From NCBI RefSeq assembly GCF_019320115.1, contig NC_089587.1, positions 90,042,939-90,106,938 of the forward strand: DNA of 64,000 bases. Reading direction: 5' to 3'. Made by a program: the position numbers and the translations under genes. Each line of letters begins with the position of its first letter. Positions within the stretch are counted from its first letter, which is position 1. Source of the DNA: Miscanthus floridulus. Its lineage: Eukaryota > Streptophyta > Magnoliopsida > Poales > Poaceae. The notes below the pieces were generated by a model. The model had not been told where the DNA came from. It saw only the letters and a list, made by a program, of their open reading frames with translations, and searched no databases. This document shows, piece after piece, positions 17,808-58,932 of the stretch.

Positions 17808-19060
17808 ATGAGCAGCACTGACGAGTCGTCCTACAGTGACACTTCCAGTGAAGGACCGAGTACTGTGACCGTGGCAAAGGCAGCATTTGTCCTACTGAAA
17901 GGGCTTATGTCACAGCAAAGGCCTAAGGTAAATCCTCCTTGTCCCATTCCAAAGCTAACGGGAGCCCAGTGGATGCATCTTACACTAGCCGACAATACCA
18001 GATGCTTAGAGAATTTGCGCATGGCACCTGATGCCTTCATGCATTTGCATGAAATCCTGCTGCCATTTGGGCTACCAGAAATAGATAAGTGCACCTCGGT
18101 AGAAGCTCTAGGCATGTACATCTGGACCTGTGCCCACCAATCGGCTAGTAGAGAGTGCAAGGATAGGTTTGAAAGGTCTTTAGATACAGTTAGTAGGAAG
18201 ATCACATTAGTTGCCGAGGTAATGTATCGTTGGGCAGATACTGTTCTAGTGCCAGTAGATAGGAACTACGCACGTGTAAGCCACAAACTTGCTGCATATT
18301 CACCATGGTTTGATGGATGCATAGGTGCTATAGATGGCACGCACATAAATGTTGAGGTTAACCGCCAAGCAAAGGCTGATTTCTTTAATAGGAAAGGCGA
18401 AACAACAATTAATGTTTGTGCCATCGTTGATATGGATGGCCGTTTCACATACGTGGGGGCCGAGAAGGCGGGGGCATGTCATGACATGGTGGTGTTGAAA
18501 GACTGTCAGGACGACGCTTTGTTCCCACATCCCCCACCAGGTTCGTGATGGCTAACTATTCACAGTCCTTGTTTTTTGCTTGCAGTACATGAATTGAAGC
18601 ATACTGGTGTTCAATTTGCTAACACAGCTAATGGCTGCTTTCATTGCTTGTAGGCCGGTACTACCTAGCGGACGCGGGTTACAAGGAGATGGCAGGTTAC
18701 ATGACTCCCTACAAAAACACAAGGTATCACAGCAACGACTTTAGGGGCATAGATTTGCAGCAATTGCAAAGGGAGGAGAAATTCAACTACATTCATGCAA
18801 AGTTGCGGAATGTAATTGAAAGGAGGTTTGGGGTGTTGAAAGAACGCTGGCATATTCTGGGCGGGGTGCCATACTGCAGTAGGATGAAGCAGGCTATGAT
18901 AATCATTTCATGCTTTGCTTTAGATAATTTTTTGTGGATGCGTAAGTACGGCGCAGATCCACCCTCGTACGAGGTGCCGCAGTGGGTTGACCTAAATTTA
19001 GACACCCCTATCTCTGAACTTAGGGAGCTGATATCCACGGCGGTGTGGAGCAATATCTGA
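17808..19060 (+). CDS. PIF/Harbinger (HARBI1-like) DDE transposase, two exons, uninterrupted
   Basis: Exon 1 is 17808-18540 and exon 2 is 18654-19060. The intron (18541-18653) has GT/AG borders and joins a split Gly codon, restoring the block GRYYLADAGYKEMAGY. The sum is 1140 bases: 379 residues plus stop, with no internal stop. The catalytic triad is visible: Asp in GAIDGTHI, Asp in GACHDMVV and Glu in NVIERRFGVLKERW. The length and layout are those of HARBI1-type DDE_Tnp_4 nucleases, which cut DNA at the element ends in the nucleus. The ATG at 17808 (MSSTDESSYSD) is chosen because the upstream frame runs into a likely splice acceptor. It is the only complete mobile-element enzyme in the window. 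Confidence 0.85.
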
Positions 19061-30000: not shown

Positions 30001-30301
30001 TTACATGTATAGTTATAATTAATTAATTTGCCAATAACTGTCGGACACACACAGGCTCAGACATCACAGAATCAGTAGTCCTTACCACAAGATCGACGCC
30101 TTCCTCGCTGTAATGCCACGGGGTGTCAGCCTTGATGACGACGAAGGAGACATGGACAGTATCCCCCTCGTACTCCACGTTATGCGAGAAGCACTCTTCC
30201 CTGTCGATCACGAAGCGGATGCCCTCAGCGGGGCGCAAGAGCAGCAGCACGGCGCAGAGCACCGATAAACAGCACGCCGTTCTCAAGCTCAGCCCCTCCA
30301 T
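27052..30301 (-). CDS. p24-beta type EMP24/GP25L cargo receptor, 4 exons
   Basis: Exons on the minus strand: 30301-30086, 28768-28582, 28494-28387 and 27185-27052, all GT-AG. Total 645 bases, 214 residues, a normal p24 length. A signal peptide (LSVLCAVLLLLRPAEG) is followed by a GOLD domain with the conserved cysteine pair (REECFSHNV and HRFCFTN), a coiled region (FAPLFEQIAKLDEALYNIQF), a transmembrane helix (SAALIAASVIQVYLL) and a short cytosolic tail RRLFERKLGMSRV. The tail and sequence fit the plant p24-beta class. It cycles between ER and Golgi in COPI/COPII vesicles, helping export of cargo including GPI-anchored proteins. A GT-AG 5' UTR intron (about 30319-30676) is plausible. Intron 3 carries a transposon-like insert and intron 1 a SINE tail. 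Confidence 0.93.
27570..28264. mobile_element. Non-autonomous DNA transposon in p24 intron 3
   Basis: The left end reads GCATTTGGTTCGGTCCTATGTAACG. The right end read inward is GCTGTTTGGTTTAGGAACTGTAACG. These are imperfect inverted repeats about 25 bases long. Between them is a GC-rich block (27700-28110) with no recognised protein. The flanks CACCAAGA and CACCCAAGAA are similar and may be a damaged 8-bp target duplication, which would point to a hAT-type origin. This is not certain. Confidence 0.5.
29600..29675 (+). repeat. Au-SINE-like 3' end
   Basis: The phrase CTACCCCAACTTGCTTGGGA followed by CTGAAGGTTTTGTTGTTGCTG matches the 3' ending of the grass Au SINE family as I know it. Only the tail part is recognised. 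It sits in intron 1 of the p24 gene, opposite to its direction. Confidence 0.45.
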
Positions 30302-30879
30302 GTTGTGCTCTGCTGCCACTGCCAGAAAACGACTACTGATTCCACGAGCCTCCCTGCACAGGCTAATCCCCAAGCTGTCAGCAGGACCATAGGAACAGAT
30401 CAGGGGCGAAACACGGTTCGGAAGGGCTGAATCGGGGGAGGAACGGGATAGGCTGGACGGCGAAAAGGGGGGGCACGCGGCTTGCCCGGTAAAGCACCGC
30501 AGCCGCAGCCGTAGAGGAAGAGTGGAGTCCGCTCCCACCCTGCGACTCCAGGCTCCGATCGCGCTGGCAGCGAGTACCGGAACGAGATCTGACCGGGTCC
30601 GCATGCCCTATGGATGCAATCGCCGATCGGGAGAGGGCGAGTTGGACGGGGAGGAAGAGGCGCGGAGACTCGTTACCTGCTGCTGCTCGGAAGTGGCGAG
30701 GTCGCCACTCGCCTCCGGCGATCTGGGCGGCGCTTCCCCCCGCCTCGGTGGAGGAAGCAATCGATCGAGAGAGGAGGAGGAGAGAAGTCACGAAGCGAGC
30801 TGACCGAGACGAGAATCCGTTCGCGTGTATGTGGAAGAAAGAAAGAAACAGAAACTCTTTTTCCATCGTTCGACGCGAG

Positions 30880-32647: not shown

Positions 32648-32763
32648 TGTAGGATCTCTGGAACGCCTAGAGGGAGGGTGAATAGACCTATAAAAATTCA
32701 ACTCAAACCGAAGTCAAATTTACCCACGGCACTGCCGCTCTGTGAGCGCGGCACTGCCGCACC
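32648..32763 (-). repeat. End of the copia-A 3' LTR, left of the Tekay insertion
   Basis: The segment begins TGTAGGATCTC, the inverse of the GAGATCCTACA that ends copia-B's LTR at 54546. It contains two GCGGCACTGCCGC-type palindromes (about 32728-32740, 32749-32761). It rejoins 48259 if the Tekay element is removed. Confidence 0.8.
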
Positions 32764-35700
32764 TGTAACACCCTAGGTGTTTGACTTCCACAAAAGTGCA
32801 TTTCATTTCATAAACATATGCATCATCTATCTCATCATGCCATTGTCACTGAAACATACATATGCAACATTCGCAATTCTGTTTGTTTCATACTTGATTT
32901 GCTTGTGAATGGTAGTAGTGCAACATGTGAATGCAATATGAGTTTCTCATACCTTGAAACATGGCAACATGGTAGGAATGTGGCAAGTTAAAATTGCAGC
33001 AAAGGCATGAAACATGTGAAACATGGAATTGCAACATTAGAGTGAAATTGATTGTTTTGTTGCTTCATCACATGTGATCATTAGAAGTTGGTATAGCATT
33101 TGTGTAAAGTGGTTGATTATGGTCTAATACACCTTAAATACACTTAGGGTAATTGATGGGACATTGTTCATGTGGACCAAAATGACTAAATTGCCCTCTA
33201 GTGGAGGTTTGACTTAGAATGACCTTTAAAGTGTCACTGTTTGACTGATTCAAAAGGCTAACCTAGAGACCTTGCATGGCTGTGCACCCTTTACCAAAGT
33301 TGTAGCCAATTTATCAAGGAACAAAAGTCTTAATATGACCATCTCATGAAAATGGCTAGAACATATTCAAACAAGGCCCACAAGTCATATTTCCATGCTG
33401 AATTCACACTTAGAAAATTTGCTAAGTCATAAATCCAGTTTCATTTGGATCAAGTCAACTTTGGCTTGATGTAACTTCTGATCCATGGAGAATTATACGA
33501 TGATCCTTGAATAGAAGTTGGAGATGGATAGCAGGCCTACAATTTTCATGTACACGGTTTTTGCAATGGATCAACGGTTTAGCCGTATTAGCACGTTGAA
33601 GTCGCGCTGTTAGGCGGTTCAACTCATCTGAATGCGAGCTACAGTACCTAACAACCATCAGACAACAAGCGCTGCATGGGTGACACTCGTCGCCGGTCTC
33701 CTGCTCGTGCTGCCACGCGCCGCGGACGCCCTGGCACGGCCGACCATGACTTGAGCAACACCCCGCGCGCCTGCCAACCAGCTCGTCAGTTCTGATTTCA
33801 TTTCCTCAACTTCCTCCGCTCGCCCATAGCTCCGCAGCAACAGCCGCCGTGACTCCGACCAGCTCGTGCTCGCGCGCCACCGTAAAAACACATCGGCCAG
33901 CTCATTCGTAGCTTCACCGTGCTCTTCTCCACCTCCTCCACCTCTCATCCGTGTCATTTGGGGCTTGGTAAGGGCGTATTCGCCATTTCCTCCACCGCAG
34001 CCATGGCGGGACCTCGTCGGAGTTGGCGCTCCACGCGGCCAACTGCCACCGTGGCCTTCCCATCCCCTCCTCTTTGCTTGGTTAGCTTGGTAGTGAACTC
34101 CGAAAGCTCGTACCGAGCTTAGCCGCACCCTACGGGGTCAGGCCTCGCTGGAGCCGGCCAACTCGTGGCCGTGCGCCGCCATGGCCGTCGCCATTTCCTC
34201 TAGCTATGGTAATAGCTGAAATTAATGGCACCTCTAGGTGCGCACGGGTGAGGCGAACACATTGACACCAATGGCCTCGCCGGAGCTGTCACCGACGATG
34301 AGCTACGCCGCCGTCCTTTCTTCCTCCCTTGCCTGTCTCTCTGTCTTGAGGGACCCGCGCGTCAGTCGTCGAACTCAGGCAGGAACCGACATGGGCCGCG
34401 CTGCTTCTGGGCCACGCTGGCGTTTGCTGGCGCATGCATTGTGGGCCGCCGTGTGCTTTCGGGCCGGCCCAGCAGTAGGGTTAGGTTTTCATTTTTGTTT
34501 TGTTTATTCTTTTTCACAGATTTGTGTACATTTTCAAAAATATGTATCTCCTAGTTGGTAGATTCAAATGATGTGGTTCCAATTTTGTTGAGTTCATGAT
34601 AATATCTAGTTTATATTAAAAATATAATTTATGCCATGTTCTGTTATGAAAAATGGAGTTGCTAATTATCTCTTTTAATCATGAAGGAAATATGGGTAAT
34701 TATATCTTTTTCTATGTAGCTCCAAATGGCATGAAATTTTTATGGTATACTGCTCATATCATGAATAGCTTGTAGTTAAATTTTCATATATTTTGGACAC
34801 TGTATGTAGGAGATAGGAAATTCTCTTGTTTGCATGGATGGATCTTGTGTGAATTTTCATAATTTTTCTATAGATCTAGTAAAGGTAAAATTTGGTGAGT
34901 GCTATTCTTATGCTAGAAGAATGCTAGAAAAAATATGAAATCTGTTGCTTGACACATTTCACTAGGATTTCCTAATTATGCTAGAAATAGACATGCCACC
35001 TGTTATTTTGGATACAGTAAGTTCTGCTTGCCCAATGGCTTTGAAATTTTTATGGTAGCCTATGTGAAGCATGAGATAGCTACTGTAATTTTTATAGATT
35101 TTTCTGAATAGTTTTACTATATATTGCTTTAATCACCTAATTAACTAAATAAATTAGAAAAGGGCATTAAATAATTTATTTAGAAGTTGGCACTATACTT
35201 TTTGATGTTCCTCTGGTATGTGCAACAAGTTGGTAAACTTGGTTTGGTCCAATTATGCTTTTGCATCATCACTAAATAATTAATTTAGTAAACCTGTCAT
35301 TTCTGGACAGATTCTATGTTTACCTTAATTCGATTTGGTTAACGTAAGAATCATGCTTTGATGTTTACAAATGATTTGTAGAGAATTTCATAAGATTTCT
35401 AGAATGTCCTCTTGCAAGTCATTTGGAATTGTAGAACTCTTGTTGTGATCGAATTAAAGGACTGCTCGTTTGCATATGAAACTTTAACTGTTGATTTAAG
35501 TATGCCTTTACTATTTCCTAAACTTGTGGTAATGTTCCTAGGTGTTAGGCCTTTAACTGAAGATGAGCATCTTTATCTTAGGTTATGCAAGTTAGGTAAG
35601 TTGATCTTGTTCTTCAAGTTAAGTTAGATACATGCTTTAAAGTGATTTGAATAGAGCTATTCTTAATCGGTAAACGAGTGTCTAGTGATGTTTTCGTTAA

Positions 35701-37440
35701 ACACTTACTGTAATCCATTCATCATGAGCATCATGTCATTCCTTATGCATCCATGATATTTATCTTGTGCATCGGCATGCAATAGGTGTACCGGAAGGAG
35801 TGACACTGTTGGAATTCGAGGAACTGAGCGGGGAGCAGCAGTAGCCAACACCGGAGGTTCAGGAGGTGCAGTCCTTGGGGGAAGTGCCAGGCAAGGTCGC
35901 CGTTGAGTGCTCGGATCACCATCCGTGCAACTTTGTGAAAGGCAAGCCTCGGAGCATATTAAGCCTCCTAATTTCCGAAATGCAGTTAAAGTATTATTGT
36001 TACATATATATATTGTTGCATTAAGTTTAGGTGTTAGATGCAAACACTTGCTGCATTGGTTATCCAATCCTTGTCCAGATATTGATATCCTGAATCCTAT
36101 GTAGCTCAAGTTCATGTAGTGCTTAGCCCTGCTTAAACGCGGTAGAAGTCAGGTGATTTCCTGTCACCTGCGAGATATTGGAATATATATATGGCATGGT
36201 TGGCTATATTTGCTATCATGGAAAAGAACCTGGCTTAATTTGAAATGAAGACCGGGCGGAGGCTTGCCGGTTTGTAGTGACTCCGTCTGTGTCGCTTAAG
36301 GACTGAATCTTGGAGCCTTTCCTGTTCATGTTGAACGCATGCCTCTCTCTTAGTTGGTCGGGTCTAGAGACCGACCACGAAGCCGAGTAGCTCACCTCAG
36401 GCCGGGAGTCGATAAGTATAAAGTACGCCTCGGAAGGGAGCCGTAGGCGTGAGTCCAAGGGCAGGTGATTTAAAAGTCTTGATCATCCTGGCAGAAGGGT
36501 AATCCCTGAGAGCGTTGGCGTTGATCGAACCTGCGAATTTGGTTCCTGAGTTGTCCCAAAGGTGACCCACGACTACCCTTGCAAAGTATGCCAGGGTGAG
36601 AGTTAGGAATACCCCCTCAGCTAAGTTGTAATTCGACTCAAGTCACCGTCTCTCCTGGTTAGTGAGAACTTGACGGGCTTATCTCCAAAGTAGATACACT
36701 AAATAACATAATGGTTCTAAAAGATGATATGATGATGACAGCCTTATTATACCTGCTATGGTTAATATTGTTTGCTCCTAATAAGTGAGTGCTCTAGTAC
36801 AGGTGCAAATCTACTGGACAGGTAAATGATGATAAACTTGATGCGAAGTTTAAATTGGTTACTATATTCATAAGCTCTTTTATGCAACTGTGTCCAGCTA
36901 GCCCACTTCATAAGCCTTGCATGACCCTTGGTGTCTTTTATTTCTAGTTTTGACGGGTAAGTCTAGCTGAGTACCTTCTCGTACTCAGGGTTTATCTCCC
37001 ACCTATTGCAGATGACCAGTTCTACTTTGGTTGCTGCAAGTATTGCCTTCTCCTGGCTGGGGATGAAGACTAGACCGTTGGGCACGGTCTCTCCTAGTTC
37101 TCGTACATGAAGATGCTTTTGTGGGACATGACTAAGATCTGACAATGTATTTGAAACTATGAAGTTATGTACTAAACTATGTTGCTTCCGCAAATCTGAA
37201 CTTGGGTTGTAATATTCTATTTGAACTCTAATGGATGTAATTCGAATGCTACTTGTGAAATGTTGTAATGAATGATGTGTTGTGTTGAATCACTACGGTC
37301 TTGATTTGTATGTCGAGAGTTGGTTGAAATCCTTCGTGATTTTTGGACTACCGGGATTATGGGAGCTTAAGTACAGGAATTTGATCACTTTGGTCATTGT
37401 TTTGTACTTACGTTCTTATGATTTGGTCGGTTCTGTTACA
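32764..37440 (+). repeat. 5' LTR of the Tekay element (4677 bp)
   Basis: Near-identical to 43599-48258. A GC-rich block (about 33660-34490) and AT-rich remainder are present in both copies. Open frames such as those at 33658-34128 and 35412-35627 recur in both LTRs and match no known protein. Confidence 0.92.
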
Positions 37441-37442
37441 GC

Positions 37443-37454
37443 TGGCATCAGAGC
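37443..37454 (+). other. Primer-binding site of the Tekay element
   Basis: TGGCATCAGAGC, two bases after the LTR. It differs by one base from TGGTATCAGAGC, the complement of the initiator tRNA-Met 3' end. Confidence 0.8.
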
Positions 37455-38191
37455 AAGATTCAACACTAAACATGTCATTTGTGTATTTAAAATAAAAGTA
37501 TTTGTGAAAATTCTAAATTAAATACTAAGTATTGCTAGTGGTCATATCCCTTATGCCTAAATAAGGACTCTTAGGTGGCTTATAAAGTACTAACTTGGGG
37601 GTTCCTACTTGTTTCTGTTTCGTTGTCCATACGTGCTATTGTATGGATGCCATCTGCTTGGGTGGTAATGTATGGATCAAAATACCTCTACGCTCTGGTA
37701 AGTGGGAGTTGTGAGAGCATGACCGTCCAACCGTCGGTCTAGGGGAGAGTAGTTGTGGTTGCTCGCATACTTACATATTCGATCATGTATCTATGAGAGT
37801 ACTTAAGTGTGGGTATCTCTGTCGGGTAGCTGTGATACTAGAGTATATACATCAGGGGATGTATGTATGAAAGTATTTAGTTTACTACTGACTTTACATG
37901 CCTTTTTGGGAAATTATTGGGCTGAAATGAAATTTTTTGCAGGTACACTAACAACGTATCGTTGTAGATCGACTAGCTACCGTATATGAGAGAACGTATG
38001 TATGCCACCATATATTTCGCTAGCCTTTAAATTTTTCTAGGTTTGTGAGGACGTACGAATCATGCATGCATCATGTTCAAGCATAAATAGCATTTTTGCA
38101 TTACTCCCTCCTTTAAAATTGATGGTCTCGACTAATTAAATTTCGTATCCCTTAAATGATTCTCCCCTTACGTTGCAACTTTTTGCTACAG
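37455..38191 (+). other. 5' leader of the Tekay element
   Basis: Non-coding, AT-rich. It ends in a pyrimidine-rich stretch and TTTTTGCTACAG directly before the ATG of the extra ORF, which looks like a 3' splice site. Confidence 0.5.
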
Positions 38192-38788
38192 ATGGCACGC
38201 ACAAAACGCACTACTCGCAAGTCCGTCGGAGGCAGGGCGCCTCATCACTGGTTAGCTCCTCGTGAGCCCTGTCCTAAGCCTACTATGGAGGAAAGGCTAA
38301 GGGCAGAGCTAGCCTGGGTGACTGTTGAGAGGAGTGCAGCTCAGCACCATTTGGAGCAAGTCACACAGGAACAGGATCAAGTGACCCTGGAGGTTCAGAG
38401 GTTGACAGTTGCTCACCGCAACTGTGAACGTATGTTGATTCATGTGCTGAACCAACGGAATGAAGCCTAGCACAAGGATAATGTGTTGAGAGCGTGACAG
38501 GTAGAACTAGAGCAGCAGTTGGCAGCTGCCGAAGAGTACAATGACCATCTCCATGAGGAGGTTCACCTGTTACACAATCAACTTCACCCTCTCCTACCCC
38601 CTGATGATGAGAATGACAATGAGGATGAGATGGGCTCTGGTGTCATCATGGCTGAGGATGATGATGACATTGAGATTAATGGACCTGAGGATGTTCCACC
38701 TGATGAGGAGGAAGATGAGGAGTTAGAACCTGCTAGTGATGAAGATGGAGGAGAGATCTTTGACACTAACTCCGAGGACGATGCGTAG
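38192..38788 (+). pseudogene. Extra ORF upstream of gag with histone H3-tail-like N-terminus and acidic C-terminus
   Basis: One frame of 198 codons plus stop, broken by TAG (38468-38470) and TGA (38495-38497). The product begins MARTKRTTRKSVGGRAP. Histone H3 begins MARTKQTARKSTGGKAP: 13 of 17 positions agree, including ARTK (K4) and RKS (K9-S10). K14 is Arg here. Residues about 40-140 are rich in E, Q, L and H and look helical (LEQVTQEQDQVTLEVQRL, AAAEEYNDHLHEEVHLLHNQ). From residue about 133 the protein is strongly acidic to the end (DDENDNEDEM, EEEDEELEP, TNSEDDA). No histone fold is present. It lies between the primer site and gag in the sense direction. The role is unknown; chromatin targeting or histone mimicry is inference. 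Confidence 0.75.
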
Positions 38789-39200
38789 TTTAGCTTACTA
38801 CTTAGCTAATGTGCTAGAGCTAGTCTTTTGTTGATCCTCATGCATGAACGAGTAGCTTGTAATAAGTTAATCGTTGGGATGTAATATCGAACCTTAAGTT
38901 ACCTTTGATGTCAGTTGGAACCTTTATGGCTTGGATGTAACCTATCAAACGTGTTATGCTCCATGTATGTGAGCCTTTGATAATTTCTGTCTATGCGGTC
39001 TATCGATCTCATTGTTGGTTAAGTTCATCGCATTAATGTGTCAATCGATGCGCTTGATGAGTTGTGTGATTGTGATGGATGATTGTGCCTCTGTTCATAA
39101 TATAAATTCATTTTCTCCATTGGAGTCAGTTTGGCATAATTATACAATTCATCTACAAAATTTCCACATCATCAGTGCTCATTAGCTATACATTTTGCAG
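38789..39200 (+). other. Spacer between the extra ORF and gag
   Basis: Non-coding. It ends ATACATTTTGCAG directly before the gag ATG at 39201, again like a 3' splice site. Confidence 0.45.
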
Positions 39201-42200
39201 ATGGCTTATAATCTTCGTCGCGGTCGTAGCCTTGGAGATGAGGAACAACCACCTCCTCCACCGCCCACACCAGCTGAGCTAATGCGGACAGTTGTTGAAA
39301 GTCAGCGCATGCTAGCTGAGGCTATGCGCCAACTAGCTAACCGTGATGACCGACATGTCCGCCAAGGACTCGAGCTGAACTAGTATAGCAGCTTTAAGGA
39401 CTTCATGGACACAAAGCCTCCTATCTTTCGAGAGGCAGAAGAACCATTACAAGCTGATGAATGGTTGAGTACGATAGAGCAAAGGTTTGGATTGTTCTGT
39501 TTGACAGAAGGTATGAAGGCCTCGTATGCAGGACACCAGCTCCAAGGCCCTGCAGGCATCTAGTGGACCCATCACAGGACCACCTTCCCTACAAACGTTG
39601 AGGTGGTTTGGGGCTAGTTCTAGGAAGCTTTTAGGGGACATTTTATGCCTCCTGGTCTCATGGCTATTAAGCATACCGAGTTCATAAAGCTAACTCAAGG
39701 CAACAAGAGTCTTACTGAATATCTCTAGGCATTTAACAACCTGGCGAGGTATGCTCCTGAGTTCATTGATACTGATGCCAAAAGGATAGCTAGTTTCAAG
39801 AGGGGACTTTCCTCTAAACTGATGAAGTATATGGGCAACTGCAAGTGTGTCACCTTCAATGAGTTTATCAGTGACACCCTAACTTAGGAGAATAATGATA
39901 AGGTGTATGCTACTTCCAAGACCTGTAAAAGAAACTTTGAGGCAGGTGCTTCTCAGTCTAAAGCACCAGTGGTATCCAAAACCCAATATCGTCCACCCAA
40001 TGCTAATGTCCGGTACCGCCCACCTCAGAAGAAGAATCAAGCTAAAACTAGTTTCTGCAAGGGGTACATAGTTTCCTTGCCCAAGAATACCTCTAGACAG
40101 GGTAGCTCCAATGTCCCACCAACAAACATGCCATGTTGGAACTATAACAAGCCTGGTCACTGGGCTAGTACTTGTCCCTATCCTCCCAAGCAGAATGCTC
40201 AGGGAAATGTCCTTCAAGGGCATGTTCACTACACTACTGTGGAGGAAATTCCTGCTGGTGAAGTGGTCACTGCTGGTAAGTTCCTTGCTAATGATCACCC
40301 TGCAGTTGTGCTCTTTGATTTGGGTGCTTCACATTCCTTTGTAAGTTCTACTTTTGTATCTATGCATAAGATGAATGTGATTACAATTGTCAAGGGTGGT
40401 TATTGTATTAGTGTTGCTGGAAATAATATCATGACTAACCAAGTAGTTAAAGATGTAAGGATTGAGATTGGGGATCAAGAGTTCCTTACGGATCTTGTAG
40501 TTCTGCCGGGGGTAGGAATCGATGTAATCCTAGGGATGAAGTGGATGAGCGAGAATAGAGTGTTGATCGATACATCAACCCGTGTGGTAATGTTGAGGGA
40601 TCCCATGGATAAGAAGGGTTTTCTAGTGCAGTTACCTCATAATATCGCTATCCACAATACAACTAATGCTACCCTAGCCAAAGCCATTGAAGATATACCA
40701 GTTGTTTGTGAGTTTCCAGATGTCTTCCCTAATGACTTGCCTGGATTACCTCTAGACCGTGAAGTAGAATTCAAGATAGAACTCATTCCGGGTACGGCTC
40801 CTATTTCTCGAAGGCCCTATAGAATGCCACCCAATGAGTTGGCTGAGCTGAAGATTTAGTTGAATGAGCTATTAAAGAAAGGTTTGATTTGGCCTAGTTG
40901 TTCTCCTTGAGGTTGTCCAACTATCTTTGTGAAGAAGAAGGACGAGTCTCTGCGCATGTGCGTGGATTATCGCCCCCTTAATGCTGTTACCATCAAGAAC
41001 AAATACCCTCTTCCTCGCATCAATATTCTATTTGATTAGGTCTCCAAAGCTAAGGTATTCTGCAAGATCGATTTGAGGTCTGGCTACCATCAGATCAAAA
41101 TCCATCCTAAAGATATACCTAAGACAGCTTTCTCTACTCGTTATGGCTTGTTCGAATACCTTGTCATGTCCTTTGGGTTGACAAATGCTCCGGCACACTT
41201 TATGTACCTGATGAATTTGGTATTCATGCCGAAATTGGACAAGTTCGTCGTCGTGTTCATTGATGATATCCTGGTATATTCTCAGAATGTAGAAGACCAT
41301 GCTGAATATCTGAGAATTGTGTTAACTCGATTACGTGACAACCAGCTTTATGCTAAGTTCAGCAAGTGCGAATTCTAATTGAACAAGATACCTTTTCTAG
41401 GTCATGTGTTATCTGGAGATGGAATTTTGGTTGACCCTACTAAGGTGCAAGAAGTCCTAGAGTGGAAGGCACCTACTACGATCACAGAAGTCCAAAGTTT
41501 CCTAGGTTTGGCTGGCTACTATCGTCGCTTTATCCTGGATTTCTCAAAAATCGCCAAGCCCATGACTCGACTACTTCAAAAGGATGAGAAGTTTGTGTGG
41601 ACTCCGAAGTGTGAAGAGGCTTTCCACACTTTGTGGACCTTACTAACCTCTGCTCCTGTATTGGCACAACCTGACATCAAGAAGCCTTTTGATGTCTACT
41701 GTGATGCATGTGGCACCGGTTTGGGGTGTGTTCTTATGCAGGAGAGCCGAGTCATTGCTTATGCTTCACGCCAGCTTCGAAAGCATGAAATCAATTATCC
41801 TACCCATGACTTAGAGCTAGCCGCGGTTGTTCATTCCCTGAAGATTTGGAGACATTACTTGCTAGGTAATGTGTGCAATATCTATACTGACCATAAAAGT
41901 CTCAAGTACATCTTTACTCAACCTGAGTTGAACATACGTCAACGATGATGGTTAGAATTGATCAAAGACTACAACCTTCAAGTGCACTACTATCTTGGCA
42001 AGGCCAATGTGGTTGCTGATGGCTTAAGCAGAAAGGCCCATTGCAATTCCTTAGTTAGTGAAGACTTTCATCTGGCACACCTCCTTCATCCTGTAGTACT
42101 CCACAATATCACTGTGGATTGCTCTCTTAGAAGTCGAATTATCAAACTCCAGAAGACAGATGTGGGTGTGTTTCACATTAAGCGGAAGATGAAAGAGCAA

Positions 42201-43574
42201 GAGACCAAGCACTTTAGAGTCGATGACAAAGGAATTCTCTAGTTTAATGATAGGCTTATAGTACCCAAAGACAAAGAACTTAGAAATCAAATTATGGCTA
42301 AAGCCCATTCTTCTAGATTGTCCATCCATCCTGGTAGCAGTAAAATGTATCAAGATCTCAAGCTGTATTATTGGTGGACCAAGATGAAGAAAGAAATCAC
42401 AGCCTACGTGGCAAGGTGCGATAACTGTTGCAGAGTCGAGGCTATTCACATGAGGCCCGGATTATTGCAGCCACTCTCTATTCTTGGCTGGAAGTGGGAA
42501 GAAATTGTCATGGATTTCGTTGTTGGATTACCCACTACCAAAAAGGGTTGTGATTCCATCTGGGTTATTGTAGATCATCTAACTAAATCCGCTCACTTTA
42601 TTCCAGTCAAGTCTACCTATCACCCTCACAATTATGCTGAGATTTATTTTCAACAAGTGGTACGTCTCCATGGTGTACCCAAATCCATTGTTTCAGATAG
42701 AGGACCGCAATTCACGGCTCGCTTTTGGGAGTGCTTACATCAGAATCTTGGCACTCATCTAATCCACAGTTCTGCCTATCATCCACAAACATCAGGACAG
42801 ACTGAGCGTGTTAATCAAATTCTTGAAGACATGCTTAGAGCTTGTCTTATCTCTTGCAAAGGCTCTTGGGAGGAATGGTTGCCTCTCACTGAATTCTCTT
42901 ATAACAACAGTTATCAAGAGAGTATCAAAATGGCTCCTTTTGAAGCTCTTTATGGCCGCAAGTGTAGGACTCCTTTGAACTAGGTGAAACCCAGAGAAAG
43001 AAGATTCTATGGTATTGATTTTGTAAAAGAAGCTGAAGAGCAAGTCCGAACTATACAGAAGAATATGACTGCCACTCAGGCTAGACAAAAGAGCTACGCT
43101 GATAAGAGAAGAAAACCTATTGAGTTTGAAGTAGGTGACCATGTTTATCTAAAGGTATCCCCTATGAAAGGAGTAAAACGTTTTAGAATCAAAAGGAAGC
43201 TTGAGCCTCGATATGTCGGACCTTACCGCATTATTGAGAAAAGTGGAAGAGTAGCCTATAAACTCGATCTACCATGTGAAATGGGAGCTATATTCCCGGT
43301 ATTCCATGTGTCTCAGCTGAAGAAGTGTCTCCGTATTCTCGAGGAAAGAATAGCAACAAGGAGAATCAACTTGAAATCTGATCTTTCTTATGAGGAGAAG
43401 CCAGTGTGAGTTCTGGATACTCAAGAAAGGGTGACTCATAGGTGAGTAGTTAAGTTATACAAGGTAGTTTGGAGTAATCATAGTGATCGGGATGCAACAG
43501 GGAGCGGGAAGATTATTTAAAGGAAAATCATCCAACTTTCTATACTAAATGGTACGCTTTCCAAATCTCGGGAT
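39201..43574 (+). pseudogene. Tekay gag-pol polyprotein in a single frame with 15 stops
   Basis: From ATG 39201 (MAYNLRRGRSLGDEEQ) one frame covers, in order: Gag capsid region (to about 39900), a zinc knuckle at about 40132-40175 ([14 protein letters not shown], second Cys replaced by Tyr), protease ([10 protein letters not shown] at 40311-40340, active-site Ser replaced by Leu), reverse transcriptase (FIDDILVY near 41260), RNase H ([18 protein letters not shown]), integrase (HHCC zinc site; catalytic D, D and E present with 35 residues between the last two) and GPF/Y plus a chromodomain-like end (43200-43570). Stops begin at 39381, 39561, 39615, 39621, 39726, 39885, 40857, 40908, 41037, 41376, 41946, 42240, 42981, 43407 and 43443. 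Only one frameshift was seen (near 43486). The copy is not functional. Confidence 0.9.
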
Positions 43575-43598: not shown

Positions 43599-46500
43599 TG
43601 TAACACCCTAGGTGTTTGGCTTCCACAAAAGTGCATTTCATTTCATAAACATATGCATCATCTATCTCATCATGCCATTGTCACTGAAACATACATATGC
43701 AACATTCACAATTCTGTTTGTTTCATACTTGATTTGCTTGTGAATGGTAGTAGTGCAACATGTGAATGCAACATGAGTTTCTCATACCTTGAAACATGGC
43801 AACATGGTAGGAATGTGGCAAGTTAAAATTGCAGCAAAGGCATGAAACATGTGAAACATGGAATTGAACATTAGAGTGAAATTGATTGTTTTGTTGCTTC
43901 ATCACATGTGATCATTAGAAGTTGGTATAGCATTTGTGTAAAGTGGTTGATTATGGTCTAATACACCTTAAATACACTTAAGGTAATTGATGGGACATTG
44001 TTCATGTGGACCATAATGACTAAATTGCCATCTAGTGGAGGTTTGACTTAGAATGACCTTTAAAGTGCCACTGTTTGACTGATTCAAAAGACTAACCTAG
44101 AGACCTTGCATGGCTATGCACCCATTACCAAAGTTGTAGCCAATTTATCAAGGAACAAAAGTCTCAATATGACCATCTCATGAAAATGGCTAGAACATGT
44201 TCAAACAAGGCCCACAAGTCATATTTCCATGCTGAATTCACACTTAGAAAATTTGCCAAGTCATAAATCCAGTTTCAGTTGGATCAAGCCAACTTTGGCT
44301 TGATGTAACTTCTGATCCATGGAGAATTAGACGATGATCCTTGAATAGAAGTTGGAGATGGATGGTAGGCCTACAATTTTCATGTACACGGTTTTTGTAA
44401 TGCATCAATGGTTTAGCCGTATTAGCACGTTGAAGTCACGCTGTCAGGCGGTTCAAGTCATCTGAATGCGAGCTACAGTACCTGATAGCCATCAGACAAT
44501 GAGCGCTGCGTGGGTGACACTCGTCGCTGGTCTCCTGCTCACACTGCCATGCGCCGTGGACACCCTGGCATGGCCAGCCACGACTTGAGCAACACCCCGC
44601 GCGCCTGCCAACTAGCTCGTCAGTTCTGATTTCATTTCCTCGGCTTCCTCCGCTCACCCATAGCTCCACAGCAACAGCCGTCGCAACTCCGATGAGCTCG
44701 TGCTCACGCGCCACCGCAAAATCGCATCGACCAGCTTGTTCGTAGCTTCGCCATGCTCTTCTCCACCTCCACCTCTCATCCGTGTCATTTGGGGCTTGGT
44801 AAGGGCGTATTCGCCATTTCCTCCACCACCGCCATGGCGGGACCTCGCCGGAGTTGGCGCTCCACGTGGCCAACTGCCATCGCGGCCTTCCCATCCCCTC
44901 CTCTTTGCTTGGTTAGCTTGGTAGTGAACTCTAGAAGCTCGTACCGAGCTTAGCCGCACCCTACGGGGTCGGGCCTTGCCGGAGCCGGCCAACCCATGGC
45001 CGTGCACCGCCATGGCCGTCGCCATTTCCTCTAGCTACGGTAATAGCTGAAATTGATGGCACCTCTAGGTGCGCACGGGTGAGGCGAACACATTGACAAC
45101 AATGGCCTCACCGGAGCTGTCACCGATGACGAGCTACGCCGCCATCCTTTCTTCCTCCCCTGCCTGTCTCTCTGTCTTACGGGACCCACGCATCAGTCGT
45201 CGAACTCAGGCGAGAACTGGCGTGGGCCACACCGCTTCTGGGCCACACTGGTGTTTGCTGGCGCATGCGTTGTGGGCCGTCGTGTGCTTTCGGGCCGGCC
45301 CAGCAGTAGGGTTATGTTTTCATTTTTGTTTTGTTTATTCTTTTTCATAGATTTTGTACATTTTCAAAAATATGTATCTCCTAGTTGGTAGATTCAAATG
45401 ATGTGGTTCCAATTTTGTTGAGTTCATGATAATGTCTAGTTTATATTAAAAACATAATTTATGCCATGTTCTGTTATGAAAAATGGAGTTGCTAATTATC
45501 TCTTTTAATCATGAAGGAAATAGGGGTAATTATATCTTTTTCTATGTAGCTCCAAATGGCATGAAATTTTTATGGTGTACTGCTCTTATCATGAATAGCT
45601 TGTAGTTAAATTTTCATATATTTTGGACACTGTATGTAGGAGATAGGAAATTCTCTTGTTTGCATGGATGGATCTTGTGTGAATTTTCATAATTTTTCTA
45701 TAGATCCAGTAAAGGTAAAATTTGGTGAGTGCTATTCTTATGCTAGAATGATGCTAGGAAAAATATGAAATCTATTGCTTGACACTTTTCATTAGGATTT
45801 CCTAATTATGCTAGAAATAGACATGCCACCTGTTATTTTGGATACAGCTAGTTCTGCTTGCCCAATGGGTTTGAAATTTTTATGGTAGCCTATGTGAAGC
45901 ATGGGATAGCTACTACAATTTTTGTAGATTTTTCTGAATAGTTTTACTATATATTGCTTTAATCACCTAATTAATTAAATAAATTAGAAAAGGGCATTAA
46001 ATAATTTATTTAGAAGTTGGCACTATACTTTTTGATGTTCCTCTGGTATGTGCAACAAGTTGGTAAACTTGGTTTGGTCCAATTATGCTTTTGCATCATC
46101 ACTAAATAATTAATTTAGTAAACCTGTCATTTCTGGACAGATTCTATGTTTACCTTAATTCGATTTGGTTAACGTAAGAATAATGCTTTGATGTTTACAA
46201 ATGATTTGTAGAGAATTTCATAAGATTTCTAGAATGTCCTCTTGCAAGTCATTTGGAATTGTAGAACTCTTGTTGTGATTGAATTAAAGGACTGCTCGTT
46301 TGCATATGAAACTTTAACTGTTGATTTAAGTATGCCTTTACTATTTCCTAAGCTTGTGGTAATGTTTCTCGGTGTTAGGCCTTTAACTGAAGATGGGCAT
46401 CTTTATCTTAGGTTATGCAAGTTAGGTAAGTTGATCTTGTTCTTCAAGTTAAGTTAGATACATGCTTTAAAGTGATTTGAATAGAGCTATTCTTAATCGG

Positions 46501-48258
46501 TAAACGAGTGTCCAGTGATGTTTTCGTTAAACACTTACTGTAATCCATTCATCATGAGCATCATGTCATTCCTTATGCATCCATAATAATTATCTTGTGC
46601 ATCGGCATGCAATAGGTGTACCGGAAGGAGTGACACTATTGGAATTTGAGGAACCGAGCGGGGAGCAGCAGCAGCCAACACCGGAGGTTCAGGAGGTGCA
46701 GTCCTCGGGGGAAGTGCTAGACGAGGTCGCCGTTGAGTGCCCGGATCACCGTCCATGCAACTTTGTGAAAGGCAAGCTCCGGAGCATATTAAGCCTCCTA
46801 ATTTCTGAAATGCAGTTAAAGTATTATTGTTACATATATATTGTTGCATTAAGTTTAGGTGTTGGATGCAAACACTTGCTGCATTGGTTATCCAATCCTT
46901 GTCCAGATATTGATACCCTGAATCCTATGTAGCTCAAGTTCGTGTAGTGCTTAGCCCTGCTTAAACGCGGTAGAAGTCAGGTGATTTCCTGTCACCTGCG
47001 AGATATAGGAATATACATATGGCACAGTTGGCTATATTTGCTATCGTGGAAAAGAACCTGGCTTAATTTGAAATGGAGGCTTGCCAGTTTGCAGTGACTC
47101 CGTCTGTGTCACTTAAGGACTGAATCTTGGAGCCTTTCCTGTTCATGTTGAATGCATACCTCTCTCTTAGTTGGCCGGGTCTAGAGACCGACCACGAAGC
47201 CGAGTAGCTCACCTCAGGCCGGGAGTCGATAAGTATAAAGTATGCCTCAGAAGGGAGCCGTAGGCATGAGTCCAAGGGCAGGTGATTTAAAAGTCCTGAT
47301 TGTCCTGGCAGAAGGGTAATCCCTGAGAGCGCTGGCGCTGATCGAACCCACGAATTTGGTTCCTGAGTTGTCCCAAAGGTGACCCATGGCTACCCTTGCA
47401 AAGTATGCCAGGGTGAGAGTTAGGAATACCCCCTCAGCTGAGTTGTGATTCGATTCGAGTCGCCGTCTCTCCCGGTTAGTGAGAACTTGACGGGCTTATC
47501 TCCAAAGTAGATACACTAAATAACATAATGGTTTTGAAAGATGATATGATGATGACAGCCTTATTATACCTGCTATGGTTAATATTGTTTGCTCCTAATA
47601 AGTGAGTGCTCTAGTATAGGTGCAAATCTAGTGGACAGGTAAATGATGATAAACTTGATGCGAAGTTTAAATTGGTTACTATATTCATAAGCTCTTTTAT
47701 GCAACTATGTCTAGCTAGCCCACTTCATAAGCCTTGCATGACCCTTGGTGTCTTTTATTTCTGGTTTTGATGGGTAAGTCTAGCTGAGTACCTTCTTGTA
47801 CTTAGGGTTTATCTCCCACCTGGTGCAGATGACCAGTTCTACTTTGGTTGCTGCAAGTATTGCCTTCTCTCGGCTGGGGATGAAGACTAGACCGTTGGGC
47901 GTGGTCTCTCCTAGTTCTTGTACCTGAAGATGCTTTTGTGGGACATAACTAAGATCTGGCAATGTATTTGAAACTATGAAGTTATGTACTAAACTATGTT
48001 GCTTCCGCAAATCTGAACTTGGGTTGTAATATTCTATTTGAACTCTGATGGATGTAATCCGAATGCTACTTGTGAAATGTTGTAACGAATGATGTGTTGT
48101 GTTGAATCACTACGGTCTTGGTTTGTATGTCGAGAGTTGGTTGAAATCCTTCGTGATTTCTGGACTACCAGGATTATGGGAGCTTAAGTACAGGAATTTG
48201 ATCACTTCAGTCATTGTTTTTGTACTTACATTCTTATGATTTGGTCGGTTCTGTTACA
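43599..48258 (+). repeat. 3' LTR of the Tekay element (4660 bp)
   Basis: Near-identical to 32764-37440, with the same TGTAACACC start and GTTCTGTTACA end. Differences seen are mostly transitions plus a few short indels (for example about 18 bases missing near 47074 relative to 36250). Confidence 0.92.
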
Positions 48259-48950
48259 ACACCTACAGGAGAGATTAGTTCACAATTCAAAATCTACCCA
48301 ACTAAATTTAGATTGGGTAAATTTTTGGCTTCCCGCAGTGTAGTAGATCGCAGATCGATAGCTAAAAATGGTGATAACACCACACACAAGTGGATCAGCC
48401 TCAAACTCTAGAAATCACCCAATCAATAATATGTCACGCAAGTAATGTAAATCAAGCACAAGTGACATAATAATTTATCCTGTGGTTTGGCTCGTCACCA
48501 AGATTTTCCTACCTCCACGTTGTTGAGGTTAGCCACTAAGGCTTAGAGCTTTCTTGCCCTTCCTCGTTCTCAAGTCAAGAGACTTAACTCTTAAGATGAG
48601 GGGTAAGTTTACTAGCTTCAAGAGATGGTTACAAACCTCCCTGGGCTGCCACACAAGTTGGCAAGCTCCACGGACGATGCTCTAGCCGGCTAGGAGCCAA
48701 GCTCCATGAGTAACAAACACAACCGCTGGCCAAAACCAAGTGCTCTTTAGAGTTTGTGAATCAATAGAGCTGCTCTCTAATCGAGTTTGGGACCCTTTTT
48801 CCTCAAGAATTGATGAGGAAATTAATGAATTTGCTTGAGGACTTGAGGTCAACAATGGAGTGAGAGAGAGAGCTACTGCTTTGTTTTGGGCGTGCTGATG
48901 TGAGGAAGAAGAGAGCTTGTTCTGTTACCGTTGGAGAGGAAGGGGAAAGG

Positions 48951-54592: not shown

Positions 54593-57034
54593 ATGAAGCC
54601 CGGGGGAGGATCCGGTGTTGTGAAGCCCATCAACGTCGATCTGGAGGACGTTGGGCTGCATGACACCGACAGAAGTGAGCTTCGCACCTCTACAGCGAGC
54701 AACTCCATGCTCCCGCAGCTAGAGGCAACCGATGCCAAAAAAGCTAATAATGAAGAAGAAAGAAGAAGAAGAAGGGTAGCTAGAAAAGAGAAAAGAGAAG
54801 GAAGAGAGAAGAAGAAAAAGGAGCAGCAGCGGTTAGAAGAGAAGAAAGCAAGAAAAGAAGAAAGAAGACTCAAAAGAGAAGCTAGAAGAAAAAGAAGAGA
54901 AGCAAGAAAGAAGAAGGAACAAGAAGCAAAAGCCTCTAATGCATCTTCAAGTGAGCTATCTAGCAGCTCCAAAGATGGTGATGATGATGAGTCCGACCAA
55001 GTGCATAGCAAGAAGGATAAGAAAAGAAAGGGCAAGAAGAATGATGACAACAAATATACCGCCATATCCTTTAACTATTCTTCTATGTCCATGACTAACC
55101 ATGATTGCAAGTCTTTCATCAATGTGCCTGCGGGCAAGTTACCTCATTTTGATGGGACTAACTTTGCCAAGTGGAAGCACTTGATGAGAGCCTATCTTAT
55201 AGGTCTTCATACCAGCATTTATGAGGTTGTTTGCAATGGATTTGAGCCACCAATTGATCCCAAGAATCCAACCATGGAAGAAATGAGAATCATCCACCTC
55301 AATGGTCAAGCTACTAGTGTGCTACTTATTGTCTTAGATGGTGATGAGTACAATAGAGTGATTGGTGTGGATGTTGCCAAGCAAATTTGGGATACTTTGC
55401 ATCTTACACATGAAGGGGTTGACAAAGTGAGAAAAGCAAGAATTGAGTTGTTGATGTCCAAGCTCAACCGATTTGTTATCTTGGATGGAGAAGGGCCATA
55501 AGAGATGTTTGATAGGTTGATGACCATGGTGGGTGAGATTAGAGGCTATGGTTGTGATGAGCTAGATGATCACAAAGTTGTCAAGATTATGTTGGAAGCT
55601 TATTCACCAAGAAATGAGACCGTAGTAACTCTAATTAGAGAGAAGAAGAAGTTTGAGTACTTCATACCAAATGATGTACTTGGGAGGATCTTGACCTTTA
55701 ACATGCAAAGAGAAGAAGCAAATGAGAGGAAGAAACTTGGAGAATTGCAAGCAAAGCTAGAAGGCATTAAGATCAACAAGGATGTAGCTCTCAAGGCCAA
55801 CAAATCAAGTAGGCAAGGCTCTACTAGCAAGTCCAAAACCAACAAGCAAGATTCAATTAGCAAGCCCAAAGCAATCAAGCAAGTTCAAGAAAGAGTAGAG
55901 ACCACCTCATCCTCTAGTGAGAGTGAACATGATGATGACCAATATGAGAAAGTGGATGATGTTGCTCTATTTATGTGGAGGGTTCACAAAGGGTTGAAGA
56001 AGCAAGGGTACAAGGTAGTAAAGAGAAAGTTTCCAAACAAGAAGAAAAGGACATGCTACAATTGTGGAAGCACCGATCATTTTATTGCTAAGTGCCCACA
56101 TGAGATCAAGGAGAACAAGTATAAGAAAGAGAAGAAGGAGGGCAAGGCTGACCGGAGAAAGAGCAAGAAAAACATGGGAGAAGCTCACATTCGGCATGAA
56201 TGGGATTCATCTATTGAAAGCTCAAGTGAAGAAGATGAGAAAGTTGCAACTATTGCTATCCATGAGCCATCTTCTTCACCAAGACACTTCACCAACATGT
56301 CCAATGATGACTACTACTCCCCTCACATTTGTCTTATGGCAAAGGGTGAGAAGGTAAAATCTAAATCCAAGGCCAAAGCTCCTCCACCTCCACCTCCTAG
56401 TGATATCTCTAGTAGTGATATTAGTGATAGCTCTAGTGATGATGAATCTAGTGATAAAGAAATTGATAAATTAACTAAGAACTTAGATGGAAAGACTAAA
56501 CTATTCATCACTAAATTTATGGAGGACTTAGAGTGTCCAAGGCGAGCTAGAATCTAGAGAGGAAACTCTTATCCAACAAGATGATCTCTATATTGCTAGC
56601 AAGGAAGCTCTTGCATTAGAGAGAAGTGAGGTGGAATCCTTGTGTAAGGCCTTGGCCAAAGAACAAGGGGACCATGCTATCACAAAGAAAGAAAATATTG
56701 CTCTCAAGAAAAAGTTTGTGACTTAGATGAAAAGCACAAAGAACTTGAGCTGCAATATAACATTCTTTGGGATAGCAACTCATATCCCTCTAAGGCAAAT
56801 GATGCCTCTACTACCTCCACTAGTCAAGGTTGTGGAAAATATTATAATATTGATTTGAATGCTTATTCCACTAACCTTGCAAACATAGAGGCAATGAGAA
56901 AAGAAATTGCTAGACTCAATGAGATCATTGACAAGGGCTACTTGAGTGGTAAGGCTCAAGTAAGTGACAAGAAGGCAAATAATTCAAAAGTGCCTCAATT
57001 CAAGTAAGGGAGACACCCCTCAATCAAGCATGGG
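54593..57034 (+). pseudogene. Copia-B gag with highly basic N-terminal domain
   Basis: ATG 54593 (MKPGGGSGVVKPINVDLEDV). Residues about 44-118 are an almost pure Lys/Arg/Glu helix (for example RRRRRVARKEKREGREKKKK). The UBN2-type gag domain follows (PHFDGTNFAKWKHLMRAYLI) and a canonical CCHC knuckle at about 56054-56095 (CYNCGSTDHFIAKC), then Ser/Asp-rich and coiled-coil parts. There is a TAA at 55499-55501, a frameshift near 56530 and a stop near 56725. The reading sense continues through KHGLG at the solo LTR border and resumes at 58933, so the LTR interrupted one coding unit. Confidence 0.8.
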
Positions 57035-57039
57035 CTTGG

Positions 57040-58927
57040 TGAAAGCTCTAGTTTAGTTTTGGTGAATTGATGAAACCCTAAGTGCTAACCTAGTTTATCA
57101 AAGTGATTATGAGATAGGTTGCACTACTCCAAGTGATGAAGAAATTGTGAAGATCATGATGATGGTGATGCCATGGTGATGATCAAGCACTTGGACTTGA
57201 AAAGAAGAAAGAGAAAAACAAAAGGCTCAAGGCAAAGGTATAAATGGTAGGAGCTATTTTGTTTTGATGATCAAGACACTTAGAGAGTGTGATCACATTT
57301 AGGTTCGATAGTCATACTATTAAGAGGGGTGAAACTCGTATCGAAATACGGTTATCAAAGTGCCAATAGATGCTCTAACTCATTGCATATGCATTTAGGA
57401 TCTAGTGGAGTGCTAACACCCTTGAAAATGTTTGTGAACATATGTTAACACATGTGAACAAGGTGATACACTTGGTGGTTGGCACATTTGAGCAAGGGTT
57501 AGGAACTTCACCGGTGGAGTGTCACTGTAAGTGACTGACGCCCTAAATAGAAAAGACGGAGGTCACTGTAAGTGACTGGACGCTGGTCTCAGAAGGACCG
57601 ATGCGTCCGATCAGTAGAAGCAGTGAAGACGCTGGCGTTGATCTCTGACCGGATGTTGGGTCACTTAGTGACTGGACGCTGAAGGGCTGCATTTGGTCCC
57701 ACTAACGTGGCAATGCATAGAGGAGACACCGAGTGACCGGTCGCTGGGTGAGTCTGGTCGAGCATGATTGGACACGTCCGATCATGATTTCTCGCTTCTA
57801 GATGCTTACTAGAAATGACCGGACGCTGAGGTCTAGCGTCAGGTCACTTCACAGCAGCGCATCCAGTCATCACTTGACCATTGGCATCGAGCACTCAGTA
57901 TTTGAAGAGAGGGGACATGTGGCATGCATCGCACGGCTGGACACTGGGGTCCAGTGTCCGGTCGCCCCATGTTCAGTGTAGTGAGGAGCCCAATGGCTCT
58001 ATTCGTGGGGGCTCTCTATTTAAGCCCCATGGCTGGCTCAAGCTCACTCTCTTGGCCATTTGCATTGACATAGCAACCTTGTGACCTTAGCCAAAGCCCT
58101 CCCACTCATATCCATCATTGATTCATCATCTTTGCAAGATTGGGAGAGAATCCAAGTGCTTTGCTTGAGTGATTGCATCTAGAGGCACTTGGTGTTCGTG
58201 TTTCGCTGTAGGATTCACTTGTTACTCTTAGTGATTGCCACCACCTAGATGGCTTGGAGCAGCGAGGATCATCGAGCAGAGGGTGGTGATTGTCTCTGGC
58301 TCCGATCGTGGTGATTGTGAGGGGTTCTTAACCTTTCCCCGGTGGAGAGCCAAAAGGTACTCTAGTAAATTGCTCGTGGCTTGTGTGATTCTCATCTTGT
58401 GTTGGTTGTGCGGCACCCTATTGAGGGTTTGACGTGTGATGTGAATTAGCATGTGAACCTCCAAGTGAGTGAATCACCACAATAAGGACTAGCTTGCCGA
58501 CAAGCAAGTGAGCCTTGGTAAAAAATCATTGTGTCATCATTTGAATCTGAGGTGATTGGTTTTCATTGGTATTCATTCTTGTGATTGATTGGCTCATTCC
58601 TCAACATAGCAGTATAACCATCTTGCTCACTCTCTACATTACCACAAACTAGTTGTCAAGCTCTTTTGTGTAGCTAGTTGTGAGAGCTTGTTAGTTTGGT
58701 TAGTGTGGCTCTTTAGTTAGCCTTTGAGAGCACACTAACTTAGTGTAGTGACATAGTTATTGCGTGGATAGAAACTATATAAAATAGAATTGTGGTAGGT
58801 GGCTTGCATTTTTAGTAGGCTAGTGCAACACTCGCTTCACCTCATAATTGTCTAACCGGTTTGTTAAGTGTTGTTGTAGAATTTTTTAATAGGCTATTCA
58901 CCCCCCTCTAGCCATTAGGACCTTTCA
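57040..58927 (+). mobile_element. Solo LTR of another copia element with perfect 5-bp target duplication
   Basis: 1888 bp. It starts TGAAAGCTCTAGTTTAG and ends CATTAGGACCTTTCA. CTTGG flanks both sides (57035-57039 and 58928-58932). No internal coding region. Between 57520 and 57960 it has degenerate repeats around GTGACTGGACGCT/GACCGGACGCTG. The style matches the LTR at 10503-12899, so both may come from related SIRE-like families. It arose by recombination between the two LTRs of an insertion in copia-B. Confidence 0.9.
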
Positions 58928-58932
58928 CTTGG

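Follow-up and report, generated by a model that had tools for sequence, protein, structure and literature searches.

An extra open reading frame (ORF), termed ORF0, is known from the Tekay-type grass elements Retrosat2, RIRE3, RIRE8, ZMsat2 and Sorsat2, and sections of PMC3485330 give long terminal repeats (LTRs) of at least about 3 kb for Retrosat2, RIRE3 and RIRE8 and describe as unexplained what ORF0 does in the Tekay elements of grasses. According to excerpts of PMC11728184, the ORF0 proteins of maize Tekay and sorghum Sb7 weakly resemble a DRBM-containing protein in structure and have a long C-terminal helix, and the grass members are predicted to be nuclear. Here, we analyzed a stretch of 64,000 nucleotides (nt) from Miscanthus floridulus (contig NC_089587.1, positions 90,042,939 to 90,106,938 of the forward strand; hereafter the window), which contains a Ty3/gypsy element of about 15.5 kb whose additional ORF starts like the tail of histone H3. 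As in the grass Tekay ORF0, also called the 5' additional ORF (5'aORF), most copies of the element have an extra sense ORF between the primer binding site (PBS) and gag (28 of 30 loci anchored on gag). In the comparison by description, this extra sense ORF ahead of gag is a likeness to Retrosat2, RIRE3, RIRE8, ZMsat2, Sorsat2 and Sb7, as are the long LTRs to those of Retrosat2, RIRE3 and RIRE8 and the long helix to that of the maize and sorghum members. Assigning the ORF to the ORF0 of Ty3/gypsy elements of the Tekay/Retrosat2 type in grasses forms part of our best explanation, which as a whole we consider about evenly poised between right and wrong.

The H3-like start of ORF0 and the predicted shape of the protein

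The original prediction of a separate sense ORF between the PBS and gag was borne out, with an ATG at 38192 on the forward strand, downstream of the PBS at about 37443 and upstream of the gag ATG at 39201. The frame opens with MARTKRTTRKSVGGRAPHHWLA and reaches its terminator TAG at 38786. Its start, MARTKRTTRKSVGGRAP, matches H3 in 13 of the first 17 residues (15 of 22), and the contexts of K4 and of K9-S10 are intact with Arg at position 14, as had been described. Residue numbers in the tail follow H3 without Met, K4 and K9 thus being ORF0 codons 5 and 10. Among the 2807 ATGs of the window on both strands, the runner-up to ORF0 matched H3 in 6 of 17 residues. The analytical probability of at least 12 of 16 H3 residues after Met is 5.4e-13 per ATG and 1.5e-9 over all window ATGs, a chance expectation that the match far exceeds; the H3-like start is real. 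When the N-terminal part of ORF0 was compared to sequences in the PDB, the tails of H3 and H3 variants ranked first (E-value 0.0014 for the window copy), and the better-preserved relative P0121 likewise gave H3 and H3-variant tails as its best matches (E-value 2.2e-5). The likeness to H3, as a matter of sequence, is well supported.

The region 38192–38788 had been described as a single open frame, which does not hold: a TAG at codon 93 (38468–38470) and a TGA at codon 102 (38495–38497) leave the window copy unable to make the whole ORF0 protein. The gag of this copy is broken as well. An AlphaFold2 model of the full-length homologue P0010, made with 47 sequences, predicted residues 1–31 to be disordered, residues 32–134 to form one helix of 103 residues (predicted local distance difference test scores mostly 95–98), and the end, with 26 Asp/Glu and no Lys/Arg in 58 residues, to be disordered again. 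In the window, the forward-strand segments are the H3-like start (codons 1–22, 38192–38257), a linker reading PREPCPKPT (codons 23–31, 38258–38284), the long helix or coiled-coil segment with boundaries taken from the P0010 model and containing both premature stops (codons 32–134, 38285–38593), and the acidic tail that is disordered in that model (codons 135–198, 38594–38785), followed by the terminator at 38786–38788. The frame closes in a very acidic segment, and the model agrees with the proposed helical body and acidic end without a predicted histone fold; a Pfam search with P0010 returned no histone family up to an E-value of 1 and nothing above the cut-off. In all likelihood, the helix forms part of an oligomeric coiled coil, and at least two H3-like tails would then be exposed together; the acidic end may be called histone-chaperone-like in composition only. 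An alpha-beta-beta-beta-alpha domain, as in the aORFs with a double-stranded RNA-binding domain reported for maize and sorghum, is absent from the P0010 model. The helix-and-sheet region that the literature describes for the grass ORF0 proteins is likewise lacking in the model.

Conservation of the tail in relatives and genomic copies

A search of about 5.8 billion proteins gave 187 relatives, and the 120 listed were all from ENA or JGI sources; a second search, using residues 1–70 of a divergent member, gave 193 matches at E-values up to 10 (120 listed). No relatives were found in the collections of viral contigs and genome contigs. The N-termini of 215 proteins were surveyed, of which 121 were in register (two of these begin without Met), while the other 94, many of them predicted from a later start, are uninformative on the tail. 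Among the 121, the residues found were A1 in 115, R2 in 98, T3 in 111, K4 in 109 (Arg in 11), T6 in 110, A7 in 111, R8 in 91, K9 in 118, S10 in 117, T11 in 62 (Ala in 53), G12 in 97, G13 in 118, R14 in 111 (Lys in 4), P16 in 116, H18 in 118, L20 in 120 and A21 in 114. Changes at R2, R8 and R17 were mostly from Arg to His or Cys, the pattern expected of CpG decay. Metagenome N-termini matched H3 in 12–19 of 22 residues, except for one frameshifted start with 9, and many relatives score above the 15 of the window copy. The N-termini with Arg in place of K4 (P0116, P0159, P0163, P0171, P0175, P0177, P0185, P0200, P0201, P0205 and P0215) keep K9 and mostly read MARTRTT.

A search scored on residues 1–40, with a length window that excluded H3 itself, gave 20 matches among 50 candidates, comprising 16 members of the ORF0 family and four others. 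Of these four, P0216 and P0217 represent a single protein of another kind in two decayed copies, and P0219, a hypothetical protein, comes from the grass Aristida adscensionis. P0216, a metagenome protein, shares 20 of 22 residues with H3 and P0219 shares 18, and besides the H3-like start both have in common with the ORF0 family Arg14 and a following LAPRE. In pairwise BLAST, P0219 was significantly similar to P0216 over the first 30 residues only (25 of 30 identical) and to P0010 over the first 22 residues only. MAFFT brought the middle regions of P0216, P0217 and P0219 into one alignment in which identities were scattered, and the C-terminal part of P0219 has a long helix and an acidic stretch, a layout as in the ORF0 family. 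Since Arg14, Pro22, Arg23 and Glu24 are shared and have no counterpart in H3, we argue that the H3-like starts on these different bodies either go back to a single source, the tail having been strongly retained from one family to another, or were transferred between elements. By eye, P0218 looks like a third copy of the P0216/P0217 protein; all three have an H3-like start and a different body (DTFLSEFGMPTLLW...), in which the middle domain, judged by eye, is perhaps the one also present in P0219. The model of P0219 has the alpha-beta-beta-beta-alpha order of elements at low confidence, and Foldseek and VIA-align gave no usable match for this low-confidence model (ADAR2 dsRBM at rank 35, E-value 3.9).

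In the 2.68 Gb assembly of M. floridulus, the ORF0 start gave 6965 first-look candidates, of which the best 150 were scored, all with at least 78% identity; with thousands of such matches, the element is very abundant. To obtain copies that were not picked by their tail, a further set of loci was anchored on gag by means of its first 60 residues (6372 candidates, best 150 scored), and the top 30 by similarity to the window gag were read, including the window itself (L051). An H3-like tail was found 997–1012 nt upstream of the gag ATG in 28 of them. The H3-like start reported for the window copy is accordingly present in other copies, and beyond the family in the different-bodied proteins including that of Aristida; its absence from other copies, named in advance as speaking against the original prediction, was thus not observed. 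Across the 28 tails, K4, T6, K9, P16, H18, L20 and A21 show no amino-acid difference (each 28/28), R14 is found in 26 (one Lys, one Ser), each tail shares 14–18 of 22 residues with H3, and five have a stop at codon 20. K4 and K9 were also kept in 50 of 50 loci anchored on ORF0, which were chosen by likeness to the window tail. One of the two exceptions, L078, has no recognizable 5' part of ORF0. The other, L057, has the sequence up to the candidate ORF0 splice acceptor fused exactly to the gag ATG via a shared 8-letter stretch, CAGATGGC; around position 1500 of this locus, ORF0 and the spacer are missing, the loss running precisely from one start codon to the other, and it could represent an ORF0-less sublineage.

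Only at K4 and K9 do all 28 copies have lysine, any other lysine position being occupied in at most 5, and positions 14, 18 and 23 are Arg, His and Arg in most copies. On average, a copy has 1.25 Lys and 11.2 Arg in ORF0 codons 23–198, against 22.4 and 18.6, respectively, in codons 2–300 of gag. Of 18 near-full-length proteins, 13 lack any lysine beyond K4 and K9, while five have a single further one; in the tail of P0219, too, K4 and K9 are the only lysines.

The ratio of nonsynonymous to synonymous substitutions (dN/dS) was calculated between pairs of the 28 gag-anchored copies by counts of the Nei-Gojobori type, without a consensus, excluding L057 and L078 and skipping stop and gapped codons; the pairs are not independent of each other. 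The ratio was 0.30 for ORF0 and 0.21 for gag codons 2–300, indicating that ORF0 is maintained and used as a protein. The ORF0 protein as a whole is under purifying selection.

Possible roles of the tail

The first 22 residues of ORF0 would either descend from the N-terminus of H3 or have been selected to copy it. Removal of Met would expose A1-R2-T3-K4...R8-K9-S10, and the tails would be displayed from the ends of the coiled coil, two or more per oligomer. They may bind, or be modified by, host readers and writers of H3 such as PHD, BAH, chromodomain or SUVH-type proteins, and these would thereby be titrated or redirected, with weaker silencing of the element as the result. With A-R-T-K and A-R-K-S intact and mostly no Lys at positions 14, 18 and 23, readers and K9 methyltransferases could be engaged without the signal being passed on; such engagement without relay may take place in plants. 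UHRF1 has been described to read ARTK together with K9me3 (parts of PMC7060239) and to promote ubiquitination of H3K18, which then aids K9 trimethylation (an earlier study, as cited in sections of PMC12704277). Anti-silencing proteins are known from another plant transposon, VANDAL (as cited in excerpts of PMC11728184). We give the reading of ORF0 as an H3-derived tail, which is offered multivalently to readers and writers of the H3 tail as a ligand or decoy and weakens the silencing of the element, an even chance. As the original prediction suggested, ORF0 may compete for readers or writers, and it may guide integration. A stricter version, in which ORF0 is a dedicated multivalent H3-tail decoy that retains the free A-R-T-K and the A-R-K-S required by H3K4/K9 readers and K9 methyltransferases, has Arg or His for K14, K18 and K23 in most copies and otherwise hardly any lysine, that can be methylated at K9 but not acetylated or ubiquitinated elsewhere in the tail and that traps the H3K9me or maintenance DNA-methylation machinery, different grass elements having kept the tail while exchanging or losing the rest, is suggested only tentatively and is rather unlikely.

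Several observations weigh against a decoy function. The tail (codons 2–22) has a dN/dS of 0.69, against 0.23 for the coil, and parsimony on the proteins (113 of the 121 N-termini) gave 10.05 steps per site in the tail, compared to 8.08 for coil positions 32–69 and 8.83 for positions 32–78. Tail positions 5, 11, 17 and 19 vary among the copies, K4 is replaced by Arg in 11 of 121 N-termini, and L057 has cleanly lost ORF0. Taken by itself, the fixed state of K4 and K9 carries little weight because the codons AAA and AAG escape CpG decay, and P0219, with 10 lysines in its middle domain, is not similarly poor in lysine.

Without codons 6 and 20, the dN/dS of the tail was 0.54; the linker had 0.92 and the acidic end 0.28. 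Masking CpG sites gave 0.61 for the tail (0.48 without codons 6 and 20), 0.94 for the linker, 0.20 for the coil and 0.37 for the acidic end, and 30 ORF0-anchored copies gave 0.49 for the tail, 0.23 for the coil and 0.44 for the acidic end. An expectation that the tail evolves more slowly than the coil was not borne out by dN/dS or by the parsimony steps. Neutral evolution of codons 1–17 with constraint on the rest, also named in advance as speaking against the original prediction, is answered only in part by these ratios: constraint on the tail is much weaker than on the coil, but the ratio is still below 1. Within the family, only a subset of the tail residues is fixed, and constraint on the tail does not exceed that on the coil.

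The weaker constraint on the tail (0.69 versus 0.23 in the coil) and the drift at positions 5, 11, 17 and 19 also fit a captured piece of an H3 gene that no longer acts as an H3 tail, but serves as a basic, flexible N-terminus for nucleic-acid binding or nuclear localization on a coiled-coil protein involved in particle assembly or RNA handling; that other grass 5'aORF proteins are predicted to be nuclear (excerpts of PMC11728184) points the same way. A generic basic tail would, however, need neither the A-R-T-K nor the A-R-K-S context, and the tail has stayed H3-like though the bodies have diverged past BLAST similarity, with lysines 14, 18 and 23 gone and K4 and K9 retained, and we regard a captured piece of this kind as possible but doubtful. 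Considerably less probable is that the tail is a ligand for the integrase of the element itself, where the type II chromodomain of Tekay would bind the ORF0 tail and join integrase and ORF0 until a nucleosome takes over. The element seems to encode both partners, and the partners of type II chromodomains were not yet identified according to sections of Neumann et al. (PMC6317226), but the chromodomain in the window was read by eye only and carries stops. Chance or compositional likeness of an Arg/Lys-rich start could be invoked for the window copy alone, where the match is short (E-value 0.0014 in the PDB search). Against the expectation of 1.5e-9 over all window ATGs, and with different-bodied proteins that match H3 in 18–20 of 22 residues and refute chance unless they prove to be artefacts joined to H3 genes, we consider it extremely improbable.

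The host element and comparison with known systems

The element has two LTRs, a target-site duplication, a PBS and coding pieces broken by stops in the order protease, reverse transcriptase, RNase H, integrase, all on the forward strand. The 5' LTR (32764–37440, 4677 bp) and 3' LTR (43599–48258, 4660 bp) are 95% identical, with a Kimura two-parameter distance of 0.046, and are flanked by GCACC (32759–32763) and ACACC (48259–48263), a duplication with one mismatch read from the flanks. The PBS, TGGCATCAGAGC (37443–37454), is presumably of the initiator-tRNA-Met type. An N-terminal piece of gag (39201–39380) ends in a stop at 39381 and is followed by a gag C-terminal/protease piece (39888–40859; RVP_2, E-value 1.9e-30), reverse transcriptase (RVT_1) and RNase H pieces (41040–41948), integrase pieces (H2C2, rve and SH3_Tf2-1; 42243–43409) and the chromodomain-like remnant with stops, read by eye (43399–43545). 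The clade name Tekay (Del) was taken over from the earlier description, and the LTR length and the position of ORF0 are in keeping with it.

Using approximate splice matrices, the best donor in 37441–39260 was a candidate 5' splice site CTG/GTAAGT at 37695–37703 (intron from 37698), 494 nt upstream of ORF0. Counting the window, 46 of the 50 loci anchored on ORF0 have this sequence, and two others have GGTAAGT. The third-best acceptor of the same region, ending in CTACAG (38174–38191), abuts the ORF0 ATG, and the AG before this ATG is kept in 28 of 28 gag-anchored loci with ORF0; the second-best, ending in TTTTGCAG (39185–39200), abuts the gag ATG, and the top acceptor, at 37943, precedes neither. 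Alternative splicing of ORF0 and gag-pol messages from this donor to the candidate acceptors at the two start codons is plausible but unproven. A retrocopied exon-gag junction had no match in the M. floridulus genome with up to two mismatches, and retrocopying of spliced RNA is thus not supported.

Elsewhere in the window, a transposase piece was found at 17808–18548 (forward strand; DDE_Tnp_4, E-value 4e-08), the gag of another retrotransposon at 2894–3592 (reverse strand; Retrotrans_gag, 1.9e-13), and pieces of a copia element at 54593–61779 (forward strand; gag_pre-integrs, rve and RVT_2, with Retrotran_gag_2 at 1.3e-05, below the cut-off). The N-terminal part of the copia gag is very charged and rich in Lys, Glu and Arg. 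An ORF at 30023–30604 (reverse strand) may resemble p24/emp24 secretory-pathway proteins at its end, and gave no Pfam match at 0.01.

What is known is ORF0 in grass Tekay-type elements; no report of an H3-like tail on ORF0, or on another plant retrotransposon protein, was found in the titles and abstract starts of the open-licence literature, which leaves room for prior notice in subscription literature or in the original description of RIRE3 and RIRE8. The word "histone" is absent from the main text of PMC3485330, of PMC11728184 and of the review on additional ORFs PMC7264820. A mimic of the H3 tail would give ORF0 a testable role where retrotransposon expression meets silencing by H3K9 and DNA methylation. 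Plant histone proteomics and antibody-based studies could also be misled by the tail, in which the epitopes of K4 and K9 recur. Compared to H3 itself, the tail sequence is shared, but Arg14, His18 (Arg18 in P0216 and P0219) and Pro22 are found here, and the likeness fades past residue 22.

PAF15 (PCLAF) is likewise a non-histone protein whose N-terminus imitates H3 and is recognized by a PHD finger; sections of PMC7060239 give a dissociation constant of 2.2 uM for its binding to the PHD finger of UHRF1, compared to 1.5 uM for H3. In contrast to the ORF0 tail, which has no lysines beyond K4 and K9, PAF15 is a host protein of vertebrates and undergoes dual mono-ubiquitylation in its N-terminus. 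Hepatitis delta antigen is likewise reported to be a parasite protein with a histone-like peptide. If the H3-like tail of ORF0 acts as proposed, histone mimicry would be extended to plant mobile elements. Influenza NS1 is a viral histone mimic, and such viral mimics carry shorter motifs, whereas the likeness described here comprises a tail of 22 residues that forms the actual N-terminus of a protein from a plant retrotransposon.
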